Shown: in pieces, positions 7,013-21,230 of the stretch
Numbering within the stretch: the stretch's first letter is position 1
How the letters are laid out: every line of letters starts with the position of its first letter
NCBI RefSeq assembly: GCF_002093665.1
Contig: NZ_MRWE01000039.1
Span: 1-46,426, forward strand
Reading direction: 5' to 3'
Source of the DNA: Rouxiella badensis
GTDB lineage: Bacteria > Pseudomonadota > Gammaproteobacteria > Enterobacterales > Enterobacteriaceae
DNA: 46,426 bases
Program-made: the position numbers and the translations under genes
Notes under the pieces: model-generated
Database searches by the model: none
Seen by the model: the letters and a program-made list of their open reading frames with translations, nothing else
Told to the model about the DNA's origin: nothing

Positions 7013-7855
7013 ATGCCAAACGAAAATACGCCTCTGCTTTACCAGTATCCGGAACACCTTCGCCATACGCTCGAGACGCTGCCCGCGCGCAGTGGGGTCT
7101 ATATTTTCTATGGGCAGGACCAGACGTTTCCGCTGTATATCGGCAAAAGCGTTAATATCCGCAGCCGCGTGCTGGCGCATTTCAGAGCCGTGGATGAGGC
7201 GAAACTACTGCGCATGACCTGCAATATCGAGTACGTAGAAACGGTTGGGGAAATAGGCGCACTGCTGCTTGAGTCGAAGATGATCAAGGACCGGCGGCCG
7301 CTGTTTAATAAACGACTGCGCGTAACCCGCAAGCTCTGCTCGCTGCGGGTTGATGATCAGACGACGGGCATTGTTTTCAGCAACGAGCTCGACTTTTCGA
7401 CCTCGGAAGATCTCTTCGGATTGTTTAAAACCAAGTTTGCGGCTATTGAAAAACTGCGCGATATCGCCGACGAGCAGAAGCTCTGCTACGGCGCGCTGGG
7501 GCTGGAGAAACTGTCGGCCAAGCGAGCCTGCTTCCGTTTTTCTCTGGGGCGCTGCGCCGGCCTGTGCTGTGGCAAAGAGACGCGGGTGGAGCACCAGACG
7601 CGCCTCAAAATGGCGCTTGAGGCGATGAAGGTTCGCAGTTGGCCCTATCCGGGACGGATCGCTATCGAAGAAAAATCAGGCCAGCAGACGGAATATCACG
7701 TGTTGAACAACTGGTTTTATCTGGGCACCGTCAGCACGCTTGAGGCGGCCAAAGGCGTACAAACCGCGACGCCTCATTTTGACCGCGACAGCTATAAGAT
7801 CCTCTGCCAGCATGTGTTCAGGCACCAGGGGCTGAACATCACGCTATTGGATTAG
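7013..7855 (+). CDS. cho: Cho excinuclease (UvrC-like endonuclease)
   Basis: 280 residues, close to E. coli Cho along the whole length. The GIY-YIG nuclease domain is at about 25-100 ('SGVYIFYG' and '[17 protein letters not shown]' with catalytic Tyr and Arg, and '[13 protein letters not shown]' with the metal-binding Glu). A cysteine-containing region '[17 protein letters not shown]' and the C-terminal 'YKILC' are shared with Cho. Cho makes the 3' incision at bulky lesions during nucleotide excision repair, in place of or in addition to UvrC, after UvrAB loading. It lacks UvrC's C-terminal endonuclease and HhH domains. The LexA-controlled promoter supports SOS induction. Its stop codon overlaps by four bases that of kbaY, which runs the other way, with no terminator between. 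Confidence 0.95.
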
Positions 7856-8706
7856 AGCCTGCCCGCACTGCCGCAGATGCGGATCTTTTCGGCCACCACC
7901 TCTTTCATCGCCTGCTTGCCGGGCGTGATATATTTACGCGGATCGTTGGCGTCAGGGTTTTCACTGAAATAGCCCTTAACCGCATCGGCGAAGGCGATTT
8001 TTAATTCGGTGGCAACGTTCACTTTGCATACGCCGAGCGCGATGGCCCGGGCGATCATCGCCTCGGGAATGCCAGAGGCGCCGTGCAATACCAGCGGAAT
8101 TTCCACCTGCTGGCGGATCTTCTCCAGCCTGTCGAAATCGAGCCGAGGCTCGCCCTGATACAGTCCGTGTGCTGATCCTATCGCCACCGCAAGCGAGTCG
8201 ATCCCGGTCACCTCGACAAACTCCTTCGCGGCCAAAGGATCGGTGAAGAAACTGTCGGCTGAATCGACCACCAGATCGTCCTCCTGCCCCCCCAATCTGC
8301 CCAGTTCGGCCTCAACGCTGGCACCGTATCGATGGCAGAGTTTTACCGCCTGCATCACCAGCTCGATGTTCTGGCGAAACGGCAAGTGCGATCCGTCGAT
8401 CATCACCGATCGGATCCCTTGCCGGACCTTGTCCTCGATATCGCCCATCTCTTCGTGGTGATCAAGATGCAGAGCCAACGGCAGGTTATAGCGTCGGGCG
8501 GCGGCCTGGCAGATCTCGACCAGATAATCCGTTCCTGCATAGCTGAAGGTGCCGGGCGTACCGGCCATGATCACCGGCGAGCCCATCTCGGCGGCGGTTT
8601 CTGCCACCACCTGCACCGTTTCCAGATTGTGCACGTTGAAAGCAGGCACCGCGTAACCTTCGCGCTGCGCTTTATTTAACATCTCGCGGTTAGAGACTAA
8701 ATACAT
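7852..8706 (-). CDS. kbaY: Tagatose-1,6-bisphosphate aldolase, catalytic subunit
   Basis: 284 residues, the standard length of GatY/KbaY class II aldolases. Asp82 and zinc ligand His83 lie in 'LHLDHHEE', and the other zinc ligands are His180 ('AIGSAHGLY') and His208 ('LVLHGASG'). It splits D-tagatose-1,6-bisphosphate into dihydroxyacetone phosphate and glyceraldehyde-3-phosphate in the cytoplasm. Full activity in this family needs the KbaZ/GatZ partner, encoded two genes upstream. It is last in the agaR-kbaZ-agaS-kbaY run, 44 bp after agaS. The company of agaS and a GH123 protein favours the galactosamine (Kba/Aga) rather than the galactitol (Gat) role. Confidence 0.93.
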
Positions 8707-8750
8707 GGAAACTCCCTGAATTGGCGCAAAAAAACCGTCGTCTATATCCG

Positions 8751-19053: not shown

Positions 19054-19562
19054 TGACATCCCCTTGGTCGTTCGAAAAATAAACATTGTCGTAACGTACA
19101 TTCTTTCTATCCCCTAAATTTCGGTGTGTCAATATCACGACTTTTGCCCTAAATCAGTGCGGATTGCTTTCGATCTTGTTAAAAACGAAAGGCTAAAAGC
19201 GAAAGATGAAAGCCTGCCGAGTTGTAACTTTTCGATAACATTTTGGGTCTCACTTCCAGACAACAAGCGGTATCAGGGCCAGTTACACCGGGAGATTGCC
19301 GCACAAGCCCTGCACTACAATGGGGAATAAAAAAGCTTTTATTGTGCATGCGGATAAATCTTTCATTTTTGTGATGCCATTAAACAAAAAAAATGATCTC
19401 TCGCGAGCCTAAAGTGTGAGATGGGTATTCGAAGAAGATTATTAATGAGACTTGCTCTCATCTACCCACTGCTGATTTAATTTATTCCCTTATTGTCTGT
19501 TGATTAAAAAAATGGCAGGCTAAATATTCATATTTTCCGCTGGCCCCGCGAGTCTGACTATT
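19054..19562. promoter_or_regulatory. Divergent control region between the GalNAc importer and GH123 genes
   Basis: The 509 bp hold no convincing gene. CTTTCG at 19167-19172, CGAAAG at 19186-19191 and 19200-19205, and TTTTCGAT at 19229-19236 match the motif before agaR. An inverted repeat ATGAGA-CTTGC-TCTCAT lies at 19445-19461 on the GH123 side. The spacing allows two separate promoters. Confidence 0.6.
19167..19236. promoter_or_regulatory. Cluster of CTTTCG/CGAAAG motifs (probable AgaR sites)
   Basis: Three exact copies of the hexamer and one TTTTCGAT lie within 70 bp, about 115-185 bp upstream of the binding-protein start and 330-395 bp upstream of the GH123 start. Shared motifs with the agaR promoter suggest a single regulon. 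Confidence 0.6.
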
Positions 19563-21230
19563 ATGAATCTTTCACTGTCTTTTACTCATAGTCTGGAAAA
19601 GATATTTCATCAGAGATCACGTCCTGATTTTATATCGATTAAACATCTTTCATTGTTAAACAATGAAAGTATTTCTTTTCAGTGTGTCTACTGCCTGCAT
19701 AAAGAAGATGATGAACCTCGCCGTAAATTGCGCTTTGAAATCCAGGGGACGTTGTCAGAAAACATATCGGTGCGGCAGGTCAGGCATGTACCCAGTCTTT
19801 TCCCCTGCTATCAAACCGTTGATGACGATTATTTGACCGTTGAACCGGGGCTATTTCCCGATCCACTGATGCCATTGCCGAATAACACCTTTTTTGTGAA
19901 CGGCAATTATTATGGCAGCCTGTGGCTAACGCTTTCGCCAGAAAACGAAACCCTGCCTGCCGGAAACAGTGCGGTCTGCCTGCGTATTATCGACGTGGAA
20001 AGTGGGAAGACGCTGGGCGACGCGAGTCTTAGCCTTGACGTTTTACCGCAGGCCCTTCCAGCGCAAACGTTGCTGCACACCGAGTGGTTTCACGCCGACT
20101 GCCTGGCCGACGTCTATCGCATTGCGGTGTTCAGCCCCGAGTGGTGGCTGGCGGTGAGAAACTTTGTGCGCTGTGCGGTCCGCAACGGCGTCAATATGCT
20201 GCTGACACCCGTTTTCACCCCGCCACTCGATACGGCTATCGGCGGTGAACGCACTACGGTGCAGCTGGTGGGGGTCAGTCAGGAGGTCGGCGAGGGTTAT
20301 CGGTTTGATTTCACGCAGCTGGAAAAATGGGTAGAGTTGTGCCAAGAGGAAGGCATCACTACCTTCGAGATTTCACATCTTTTTACCCAGTGGGGCGCTA
20401 ATCATGCGCCAAAAATCACGGTCGAGAGAGAAGGGCGACTGAGCCGGGCATTTGGCTGGGAGACCGACGCTCAGGGCCCCGAATACCGCGACTTTTTGCA
20501 GGCATTTCTGCCCGCACTGTGCGATTGGCTGCGTGAAAGGGGGTTGCAGAAACACGCCTGGTTCCACGTCTCTGACGAGCCCAAGATGGAGGATATCGAC
20601 GCCTACCGGCGGGCAAGCGAACTTATTCGCCCGTTGATCAAAGGGTTTCCAGTATTGGATGCGCTGTCAGACTATGAGTTCTATCAGCAGGGGCTGGTGC
20701 AAAATCCGGTGACCGCGAGTGACCACATAGAGCCGTTTCTGCAACATAAGGTGCCGGATCTTTGGACCTATTACTGCTGCGTGCAGAAGCTCGATGTCGC
20801 AAACCGTTTCTTCTCTATGCCCTCTTACCGCAATCGGATTTTAGGCGTACAGCTTTATCTTTATTCGATTACCGGTTTTCTGCACTGGGGATTTAACTTC
20901 TACAACAGCGGGCACTCGCTTGAGCATCTCGATCCCTTTGCCATTACCGACGGGCAGGGCGCTTTCCCCTCTGGCGATCTTTTTGTAGTCTATCCCGGCG
21001 AGGATTATCAGCCGATAGAATCTCTGCGCCTCGTGGTGCTGAGGGAAGCGCTACAGGATCTGCGCGCACTGCAACTGCTGGAAACCGTCACCAGCCGTGA
21101 GGAGGTGGAAGCGCTGATCGAGCGCATGGCGGGAATGCGTATCACCTTTAAACACTACCCTCGGCAGGCTAATTTCTTACTCGGCCTGAGGAGTGAGGTT
21201 AACAGTATGATTAAAAAGACTTTGAGCTGA
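19563..21230 (+). CDS. GH123-type (DUF4091) beta-N-acetylgalactosaminidase-like protein
   Basis: 555 residues. An N-terminal beta-sandwich region (about 1-165) is followed by the DUF4091/GH123 TIM-barrel region (about 180-520), with 'WFHVSDEPKMEDIDAYRRAS' carrying the adjacent Asp-Glu pair used in GH123 substrate-assisted catalysis, and later 'FLHWGFNFYNSGHSLEH' and 'PSGDLFVVYPG', typical of the family. GH123 enzymes release beta-linked GalNAc, for example from glycosphingolipid or other glycans. No signal peptide is present, so it should act in the cytoplasm on imported oligosaccharides. It is divergent from the sugar importer and shares its presumed AgaR control region. Membership is confident; activity is inferred from family and neighbours. 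Confidence 0.88.
   Translation: MNLSLSFTHSLEKIFHQRSRPDFISIKHLSLLNNESISFQCVYCLHKEDDEPRRKLRFEIQGTLSENISVRQVRHVPSLFPCYQTVDDDYLTVEPGLFPDPLMPLPNNTFFVNGNYYGSLWLTLSPENETLPAGNSAVCLRIIDVESGKTLGDASLSLDVLPQALPAQTLLHTEWFHADCLADVYRIAVFSPEWWLAVRNFVRCAVRNGVNMLLTPVFTPPLDTAIGGERTTVQLVGVSQEVGEGYRFDFTQLEKWVELCQEEGITTFEISHLFTQWGANHAPKITVEREGRLSRAFGWETDAQGPEYRDFLQAFLPALCDWLRERGLQKHAWFHVSDEPKMEDIDAYRRASELIRPLIKGFPVLDALSDYEFYQQGLVQNPVTASDHIEPFLQHKVPDLWTYYCCVQKLDVANRFFSMPSYRNRILGVQLYLYSITGFLHWGFNFYNSGHSLEHLDPFAITDGQGAFPSGDLFVVYPGEDYQPIESLRLVVLREALQDLRALQLLETVTSREEVEALIERMAGMRITFKHYPRQANFLLGLRSEVNSMIKKTLS

Follow-up and report, generated by a model that had tools for sequence, protein, structure and literature searches.

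Gene Content and Organization of the Locus

The window analyzed here, a stretch of 46,426 nucleotides, is one whole contig (NZ_MRWE01000039.1) of a Rouxiella badensis genome (4.78 Mb in 72 contigs), and it contains a cluster of eleven genes in which functions for galactosamine catabolism (agaR, agaS, kbaY, and kbaZ) are joined to an ATP-binding cassette (ABC) importer, a ROK-family sugar kinase, a Gfo/Idh-fold protein, and a glycosidase of family GH123. All eleven are intact open reading frames (ORFs) whose family matches agree across the ORF list, Pfam, NCBIfam, and comparisons with Escherichia coli, and the gene content and positions given in a preliminary description of this DNA hold, the gene order also recurring in other genera. 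Ten of the genes share the minus strand; read along it, they are those of the binding protein, the two permeases, the ATPase, the Gfo/Idh protein, and the ROK kinase and, after a gap of 329 bp, agaR, kbaZ, agaS, and kbaY. The GH123 gene is transcribed divergently, with 461 bp separating it from the binding-protein ORF. The features are:

7852-8706, minus strand: kbaY, catalytic subunit of tagatose-1,6-bisphosphate aldolase (TIGR01858, 487 bits, cut-off 444; 59% identity to E. coli KbaY)
8751-9941, minus strand: agaS, galactosamine-6-phosphate deaminase/isomerase (TIGR02815, 529.5, cut-off 529.2; 42% identity to E. coli AgaS)
9938-11239, minus strand: kbaZ, aldolase accessory subunit (TIGR02810, 677, cut-off 569; 56% identity to E. 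coli KbaZ)
11294-12064, minus strand: agaR, DeoR-family repressor (NF040755, 375 bits, cut-off 260; 44% identity to E. coli AgaR)
12220-12244, no strand assigned: operator-like palindrome CTTTCGATTGAGACTAAATCGAAAG, upstream of agaR (perfect pattern match)
12394-13293, minus strand: ROK sugar kinase, proposed N-acetylgalactosamine (GalNAc) kinase (PF00480)
13312-14601, minus strand: Gfo/Idh-fold protein, proposed NAD+-dependent oxidoreductive glycosidase (PF01408; below all NCBIfam cut-offs)
14645-15766, minus strand: ABC ATPase of the MalK/UgpC type (PF00005, OB_MalK, TOBE_2)
15822-16697, minus strand: ABC permease, MalG-like (29% identity to E. coli YcjP)
16708-17682, minus strand: ABC permease, MalF-like (PF00528; 32% identity to YcjO)
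17773-19101, minus strand: periplasmic sugar-binding protein, family 1 (PF01547, 133 bits)
19167-19191, no strand assigned: operator-like palindrome CTTTCGATCTTGTTAAAAACGAAAG, in the gap between the binding-protein and GH123 genes (perfect pattern match)
19563-21230, plus strand: predicted exo-beta-N-acetylgalactosaminidase of the GH123 Group 4 type (PF13320, 363 bits)

AgaS clears its cut-off by a bare margin only, and its gene is the sole match above the TIGR02815 cut-off genome-wide. The true start of the binding protein is probably a downstream ATG, ahead of what was judged by eye to be a signal peptide ending in AQA. Within the window, neither an Rfam match at gathering scores nor a tRNA (ARAGORN) was found.

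Conservation and Distribution

A pattern-based scan of genome contigs returned 262 relatives of the GH123 gene, of which the best 80 were kept as loci, 17 of them enterobacterial (L002-L018). Two of these (L002 and L003) are short contigs with the binding-protein and GH123 genes only, and each of the other 15 (L004-L018) possesses the four importer genes (the MalG-like permease homologue among them), the ROK gene, agaR, and the GH123 gene. This core is also found in Cedecea, Serratia, and Pantoea, and as its gene order is thus maintained in other genera, the arrangement is not one of chance. The GH123 and binding-protein genes are adjacent in 17 of 17 loci, and an orthologue of the Gfo/Idh gene accompanies the core in 13 of the 15; the two exceptions, from Pantoea, carry a different Gfo/Idh protein. 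Four genomes outside this set have the arrangement too: those of L107-L109 belong to the genus, and that of L110, without kbaZ, to the family. Another genome (G324, L111) has, at about 8358-11300, remnants of the GH123 gene and of agaR along with nearly full-length agaS and kbaY, and this is a decayed copy of the locus.

The locus is rare within the order: a GH123 match was found in four of 394 genomes drawn from it (Rouxiella badensis itself and the G324 remnant included). Among 60 genomes of relatives seven were positive, again counting its own, and so were four of the five other genomes of the genus. A quick tree of 84 GH123 sequences unites all 21 enterobacterial rows with a support of 100; as the tree has many long end branches and its root was not inferred, we claim no direction of transfer. 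One locus recorded as Chryseobacterium (L006) encodes proteins 73-92% identical to those in the window, and its GH123 sequence falls inside the enterobacterial group; it probably represents a mislabelled or mixed assembly.

Outside the Enterobacterales (63 loci, L019-L081), an agaS homologue is found in five loci and a kbaY homologue in six, these frequencies, and those of the Gfo/Idh motifs below, being counts among GH123 loci only. The four kbaY loci tested (L032, L036, L049, and L079) all encode a hexose kinase of the 1-phosphofructokinase (1-PFK)/LacC subfamily, and a ROK homologue is present in three of the six kbaY loci (L036, L049, and L079). One example is Thalassobacillus (L079), in which importer homologues (33-48% identity) stand beside the GH123 gene; this locus also encodes an amidohydrolase like NagA (32% identity to E. 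coli NagA) and an additional member of the ROK family. Such Bacillota loci with agaS, kbaY, and a LacC-like kinase are a minority, and they lend further support to a GalNAc pathway.

A Predicted Operator in Both Long Gaps

The palindrome CTTTCG-N13-CGAAAG is found in each of the two long intergenic gaps. Its fuller 25-bp form, CTTTCGNT-N9-ANCGAAAG, matches the 4.78-Mb genome without mismatch at just two places, 12220-12244 and 19167-19191. As the only two perfect copies in the genome occupy both long gaps, one repressor probably controls the locus, and as agaR is the only regulator gene in it, AgaR is presumably the cognate repressor of the predicted 25-bp operator. Near matches in the genome amount to two sites with one mismatch and 19 with two, which with the two perfect copies makes 23 places versus 15 for a reversed control pattern. 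The two one-mismatch sites were rejected as further operators, both being inside long ORFs, one of which starts like DnaK (by eye).

With mismatches counted over the 12 fixed bases, all 14 regions examined upstream of agaR (the window and L004-L016) have the palindrome with no more than one mismatch. In the gap between the binding-protein and GH123 genes (18 regions, the window and L002-L018), the palindrome shows no mismatch in six, one in three, two in seven, and three in two. The seven regions with two mismatches are all of Serratia, with 4 to 10 of 300 shuffles equally good, and the nine regions from Serratia do not count as independent. In E. coli, the regions upstream of agaR-kbaZ and agaS contain several CTTTCG or CTTTCA half-sites; the 25-bp palindrome was not found in three E. 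coli aga intergenic regions, the best places having 4-5 mismatches.

The GH123 Enzyme

The GH123 protein covers the full PF13320 profile (E 2.7e-108), and among solved structures it is closest to two beta-GalNAcases that release monosaccharides, 8k2l (E 1.2e-159; 258 of 536 aligned residues identical, 48%) and 8k2n (E 1.1e-126). The former appears to be NgaP2, a characterized Group 4 exo-beta-GalNAcase, since four of the five named ligand residues of NgaP2 that were compared (W196, D244, D297, W298, and F489) fit the 8k2l chain at one offset. These four also map, at a single offset, to W175, D223, W277, and F468 of the protein in the window, and the fifth, D297 in the text of the paper, is Gln in the 8k2l chain and Gln276 here. 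All 84 aligned rows, the window included, have the catalytic DE motif (D338/E339) as well as W175, D223, Q276, and W277, and 80 have F468.

Group 4 is described as comprising NgaP2, NgaLy, NgaBl, and NgaBf, all active on GalNAc-beta-p-nitrophenyl (pNP); on Gal-beta1-3GalNAc-beta-pNP their values are below 0.5% and counted as inactive in Table 1 of that survey, and NgaP2 is listed with 4.7% on GlcNAc-beta-pNP (Sumida et al., 2024; PMC11087588). The enzyme in question is like these four in its identity to 8k2l and in the DE motif and pocket residues, and unlike them in that the enterobacterial rows form their own group. It is thus predicted to be a Group 4-type exo-beta-GalNAcase, releasing terminal beta-GalNAc. 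As no signal peptide is visible in the sequence, inspected by eye, it is probably cytoplasmic. The hydrolase had been called divergent in the preliminary description, and this is true of its direction of transcription but not of its sequence, which is not far from that of known enzymes.

The Kinase and Candidates for Steps Encoded Elsewhere

The earlier proposal that an importer and a kinase replace a phosphotransferase system (PTS) here agrees with the rest of the genome, in which no Aga-type PTS IIC component was found, the single mannose-family (EII-Sor) IIC match resembling ManY (90% identity) far more than AgaC (26%). The deacetylase and the tagatose-6-phosphate kinase, expected by that proposal to lie elsewhere, were searched for and candidates for both were located. 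One nagA gene scores above its cut-off genome-wide, encoding a protein 74% identical to E. coli NagA, and it lies beside nagB. In E. coli, agaA or nagA alone is reported to suffice for GalNAc use, and agaS mutants are reported not to use GalNAc (PMC3668189). For the second function, the genome encodes one PfkA and one 1-PFK-type hexose kinase above cut-off. In E. coli, the phosphorylation of tagatose-6-phosphate is performed by PfkA. A pfkB gene next to the locus (22485-23345) was rejected for this role, as its 1-PFK match is weak (46 bits, cut-off 216) and it stands among ribose-type ABC genes and the gene of an RpiR-type regulator.

The ROK protein maintains N104-D105 and possesses a CxCxxxxC motif. 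Directly after its catalytic Asp comes Cys-Arg or Cys-His (with Cys106 as the Cys) in nine of nine aligned rows, the window included, and the same positions are Ala-Asn in 7p7i and 2ap1. Only the context makes specificity of this kinase for GalNAc plausible.

The Gfo/Idh Protein

A profile built from 20 Gfo/Idh rows of the GH123 loci matched best to the SqgA chain 8qc2 (134.5 bits), followed by 3ezy (123.7), the inositol dehydrogenases 4mkx (121) and 4n54 (120), and the second SqgA chain, 8qc3 (113); the GH109 chain 2ixa was matched in the NAD domain only (E 1.6e-17). The lead of 8qc2 originates in the C-terminal part (22.0 versus 4.5 bits for 4mkx), the NAD domain alone scoring 115.3 bits with 4mkx versus 110.7 with 8qc2. 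In a single-sequence search, RgNanOx (6z3c) came first and SqgA far lower. With a structure model (mean predicted local distance difference test score 85.9; residues 365-375 below 50), Foldseek placed the two SqgA chains in the lead, with RgNanOx, 1,5-anhydrofructose reductase, and YjhC close behind, by small margins. Overall, the sequence and fold scores favor SqgA only slightly and decide little by themselves.

Individual residues are more telling of how this protein compares with its relatives. In ArSqgA, Lys107 and His193 are described as contacting the C3-OH and His321 as contacting the C1-OH, the two histidines corresponding to His259 and His404 of AmGH109A (PMC10755693). In the profile alignment, with numbering by offset, Lys107/His193/His321 align with K107/H196/H374 of the protein in the window, all three being present in each of the 20 aligned rows. 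The pairing of His321 with H374 is with one of two neighboring histidines, chosen via the offset numbering, in a loop that is of low confidence in the model and loosely aligned in distant rows. The dehydrogenase motif D-x-x-x-H is not kept and reads Q-K-S-C-H. The chains 3ezy, 4mkx, and 4n54 keep D-x-x-x-H and lack a His in the H374 column, where both SqgA chains have one. Of the E. coli controls, YcjS, annotated as a D-glucoside 3-dehydrogenase, reads D-I-G-I-H with no His at the H374 column; NanY, annotated as a 2,7-anhydro-N-acetylneuraminate hydratase, reads Y-H-H-I-H with His at that column; and YcjQ, with a gap at H374 and no K107, is uninformative.

Three specific assignments were rejected. 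One is a GH188 sulfoquinovosidase, for which the sulfonate-binding Arg166 and Lys172 (columns holding Val and Gln, by eye) and the C2-OH-contacting Tyr136 (Leu136 here) are not kept. Another is an inositol dehydrogenase, the best NCBIfam model, TIGR04380, giving 87 bits versus a cut-off of 355. A third is a 2,7-anhydro-sialate enzyme of the NanY (YjhC)/RgNanOx type, with 15-18% identity by fold match and no such genes recognized in the locus; these enzymes are mechanistic relatives only.

Gfo/Idh proteins with K-x-x-H are found in 26 of the 80 GH123 loci, and those with D-x-x-x-H in four (a regular expression gave 20 of 80 for the former, missing rows with far-upstream ORF starts, and L010, L013, L014, L024, L017, and L018 were added). 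In eight loci (L023-L025, L028, L032, L034, L038, and L062), the start of the K-x-x-H protein and the end of the GH123 match, both on one strand, are about 300 bp apart at most. The substitute Gfo/Idh protein of Pantoea (L017 and L018) has the motif EKCCHDLD, and in L017 (at 1515-3521) it adjoins an additional DeoR-family regulator. The near-invariant cysteines C234, C237, C243, and C287 of the protein in the window may form a metal site.

Proposed Pathway and Its Alternatives

Taken together, these data make it likely that the locus is an AgaR-type regulon for the import and catabolism of beta-GalNAc glycosides without a PTS. Small GalNAc-ended glycosides would be brought into the cytoplasm by the ABC importer, and their terminal beta-GalNAc would be removed there by the GH123 enzyme, as its solved relative and the kept active-site residues suggest. 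The ROK kinase would convert GalNAc to GalNAc-6-phosphate, to be deacetylated by the housekeeping NagA, a reaction shown for E. coli NagA. AgaS would carry out the deamination and isomerization to tagatose-6-phosphate, as proposed from the E. coli mutants, PfkA or the other hexose kinase would phosphorylate the latter, and KbaYZ would split tagatose-1,6-bisphosphate into triose phosphates. The Gfo/Idh protein would probably act on the glycoside or the partner sugar via an NAD+-dependent step, and the shared 25-bp operator-like palindrome would couple the importer and the catabolic operons. The preliminary description, which had drawn the route as far as tagatose-1,6-bisphosphate, named genes that are indeed present but stopped one step early, as KbaY and KbaZ extend the route to triose phosphates, and it gave the Gfo/Idh protein no role. 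Its interpretation is partly supported, the assignment of GalNAc compounds to the importer and the ROK kinase being a prediction.

A number of observations weigh against such a regulon. Most Serratia regions have only a degenerate form of the gap palindrome, and for the two Pantoea regions, where 42 and 44 of 300 shuffles do equally well, the 25-bp form is unsupported. In the window the site ends 371 bp before the GH123 start, making its control of GH123 uncertain. The binding protein is without a close characterized relative (best solved match Lmo0181, E 3e-34). The gene kbaZ is seen in six of the 15 loci L004-L018 and, in the fetched flanks, in none of the nine Serratia loci, with the contigs of L004-L007 ending within agaS and those of the two Pantoea loci at kbaZ, so that genes beyond fall outside the data. 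Of the 63 non-enterobacterial loci, 57 have neither agaS nor kbaY in the fetched flanks, and GH123 is therefore not tied to the aga pathway everywhere; of the six that have agaS or kbaY, just one (L079) has a NagA-like gene, and a ROK homologue is unseen in three of the six with kbaY. Finally, the top NCBIfam model for the ROK protein is that of N-acetylglucosamine (GlcNAc) kinase (PRK13310, 296 bits, under the cut-off of 380), and its nearest solved chain is the GlcNAc kinase 7p7i. This closeness to GlcNAc kinases, with a nagB-nagA pair that would serve the GlcNAc half, is what one would expect if the import were of a mixed amino-sugar such as LacdiNAc (GalNAc-beta1-4GlcNAc), from which GH123 would free both sugars, the ROK enzyme being mainly a GlcNAc kinase and GalNAc being phosphorylated by its side activity or by another kinase. 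We consider this unlikely: the ROK gene adjoins agaR throughout the 15 loci L004-L018, and the Cys-Arg/Cys-His replacement of Ala-Asn points to an altered sugar site. Still less probable, in our view, is that the locus mainly imports free GalNAc, galactosamine, or a non-GalNAc glycan, with GH123 having a separate purpose. The divergent transcription of GH123, its distance from the palindrome, and an importer ligand that is only predicted would fit this, but the unbroken adjacency of the GH123 and binding-protein genes in the enterobacterial loci, and the importer homologues beside GH123 in L079, argue against it.

If the locus does serve imported beta-GalNAc glycans, the Gfo/Idh protein may be a second cytoplasmic glycosidase for the same substrates, NAD+-dependent, oxidoreductive, and of an undescribed family, acting alongside the substrate-assisted GH123 enzyme and conserved by GH123 in Enterobacterales and Bacillota. 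We offer this as a tentative suggestion, on the doubtful side. If true, such an enzyme would open linkages or anomers closed to GH123, the oxidoreductase annotation of some anonymous Gfo/Idh genes in sugar loci would be wrong, and a motif of the K107/H196/H374 type would be a means of finding such genes. A somewhat better prospect, if still one we would not favor outright, is an ordinary sugar C3-dehydrogenase, as YcjS of the E. coli ycj cluster is annotated, with the glycoside processed via a 3-keto sugar. Membership in the Gfo/Idh superfamily, the scores of 4mkx and 4n54 above that of the second SqgA chain, the preference of the NAD domain for 4mkx, and the small Foldseek margins all fit a dehydrogenase. 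However, the Asp of D-x-x-x-H, kept in YcjS and the three solved dehydrogenases, is missing here, H374 is absent from those proteins, and no families for 3-keto-sugar processing were recognized among the locus proteins by Pfam or NCBIfam, the nearest isomerase-like TIM barrel (27883-28899) belonging to a neighboring locus. If the Gfo/Idh protein is not a glycosidase, it would be an unusual dehydrogenase or a lyase.

Relation to Known Systems

The locus shares with the E. coli aga/gam regulon homologues of agaR, agaS, kbaY, and kbaZ (42-59% identity). Unlike that regulon, it lacks the Aga PTS, agaA, and agaI, and it adds the importer, the kinase, GH123, the Gfo/Idh protein, and the 25-bp palindrome. 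It would be a form of the classic enterobacterial GalNAc pathway that relies on an importer and a kinase. Entry of GalNAc without a PTS is described for the Shewanella Aga pathway, through the AgaP permease and the AgaK kinase (PMC2996990, PMC12118421), and the likeness, drawn from description and not from the AgaK sequence, is in non-PTS transport followed by a kinase; the ABC importer and the intracellular GH123 set the Rouxiella locus apart. ABC entry as such is not new either, since LnbABC of gut bacteria is an ABC-type system counted as a GalNAc-specific transporter, and intracellular hydrolysis after import is described for galacto-N-biose (GnbPTS/GnbG; PMC5583593). By description rather than by sequence, the hydrolase there is a different one, the term GH123 being absent from the main text of that paper.

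SqgA (GH188) and AmGH109A (GH109) are NAD+-dependent glycosidases with the same fold as the Gfo/Idh protein, and the Lys-His-His set of ArSqgA aligns with its K107, H196, and H374; it differs from SqgA in the residues for sulfonate and C2-OH binding. The E. coli ycj cluster is similar in its MalFG-type permeases (29-32% identity) and Gfo/Idh proteins, but it encodes phosphorylases and 3-dehydrogenases, in place of which GH123, ROK, and aga genes are found here. No published description of this combination in Enterobacterales was seen among the matches listed by full-text literature searches, going by titles and the starts of abstracts. We conclude that this is a real, conserved, and rare catabolic regulon, made of parts of known kinds, one of which may be of a new kind. 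As the biological significance of the GH123 enzyme class is called ambiguous in the 2024 survey (PMC11087588), the locus would give the Group 4 enzymes a physiological setting, with import, a regulator, and downstream enzymes.

Flanking Genes

An FAH gene (21536-22384) was rejected as a member of the system: it adjoins GH123 only in some genomes of the same genus (L005, L082, L083, and L107) and was not seen in L108-L110, L004, or L006-L018. Beyond it lies a separate sugar locus (22485-34998), which encodes a pfkB kinase, two regulators (RpiR and IclR), two ribose-type ABC systems, an SMP-30 lactonase-type protein, and a TIM barrel protein like xylose isomerase. The same contig also encodes a GH19 chitinase-type protein with a CBM5/12 match (1972-3615), a PQQ-dependent dehydrogenase-type beta-propeller protein (35473-37923), and, at 38048-42251, an AraC-type regulator, a GH42 beta-galactosidase, and a LacY-type symporter.

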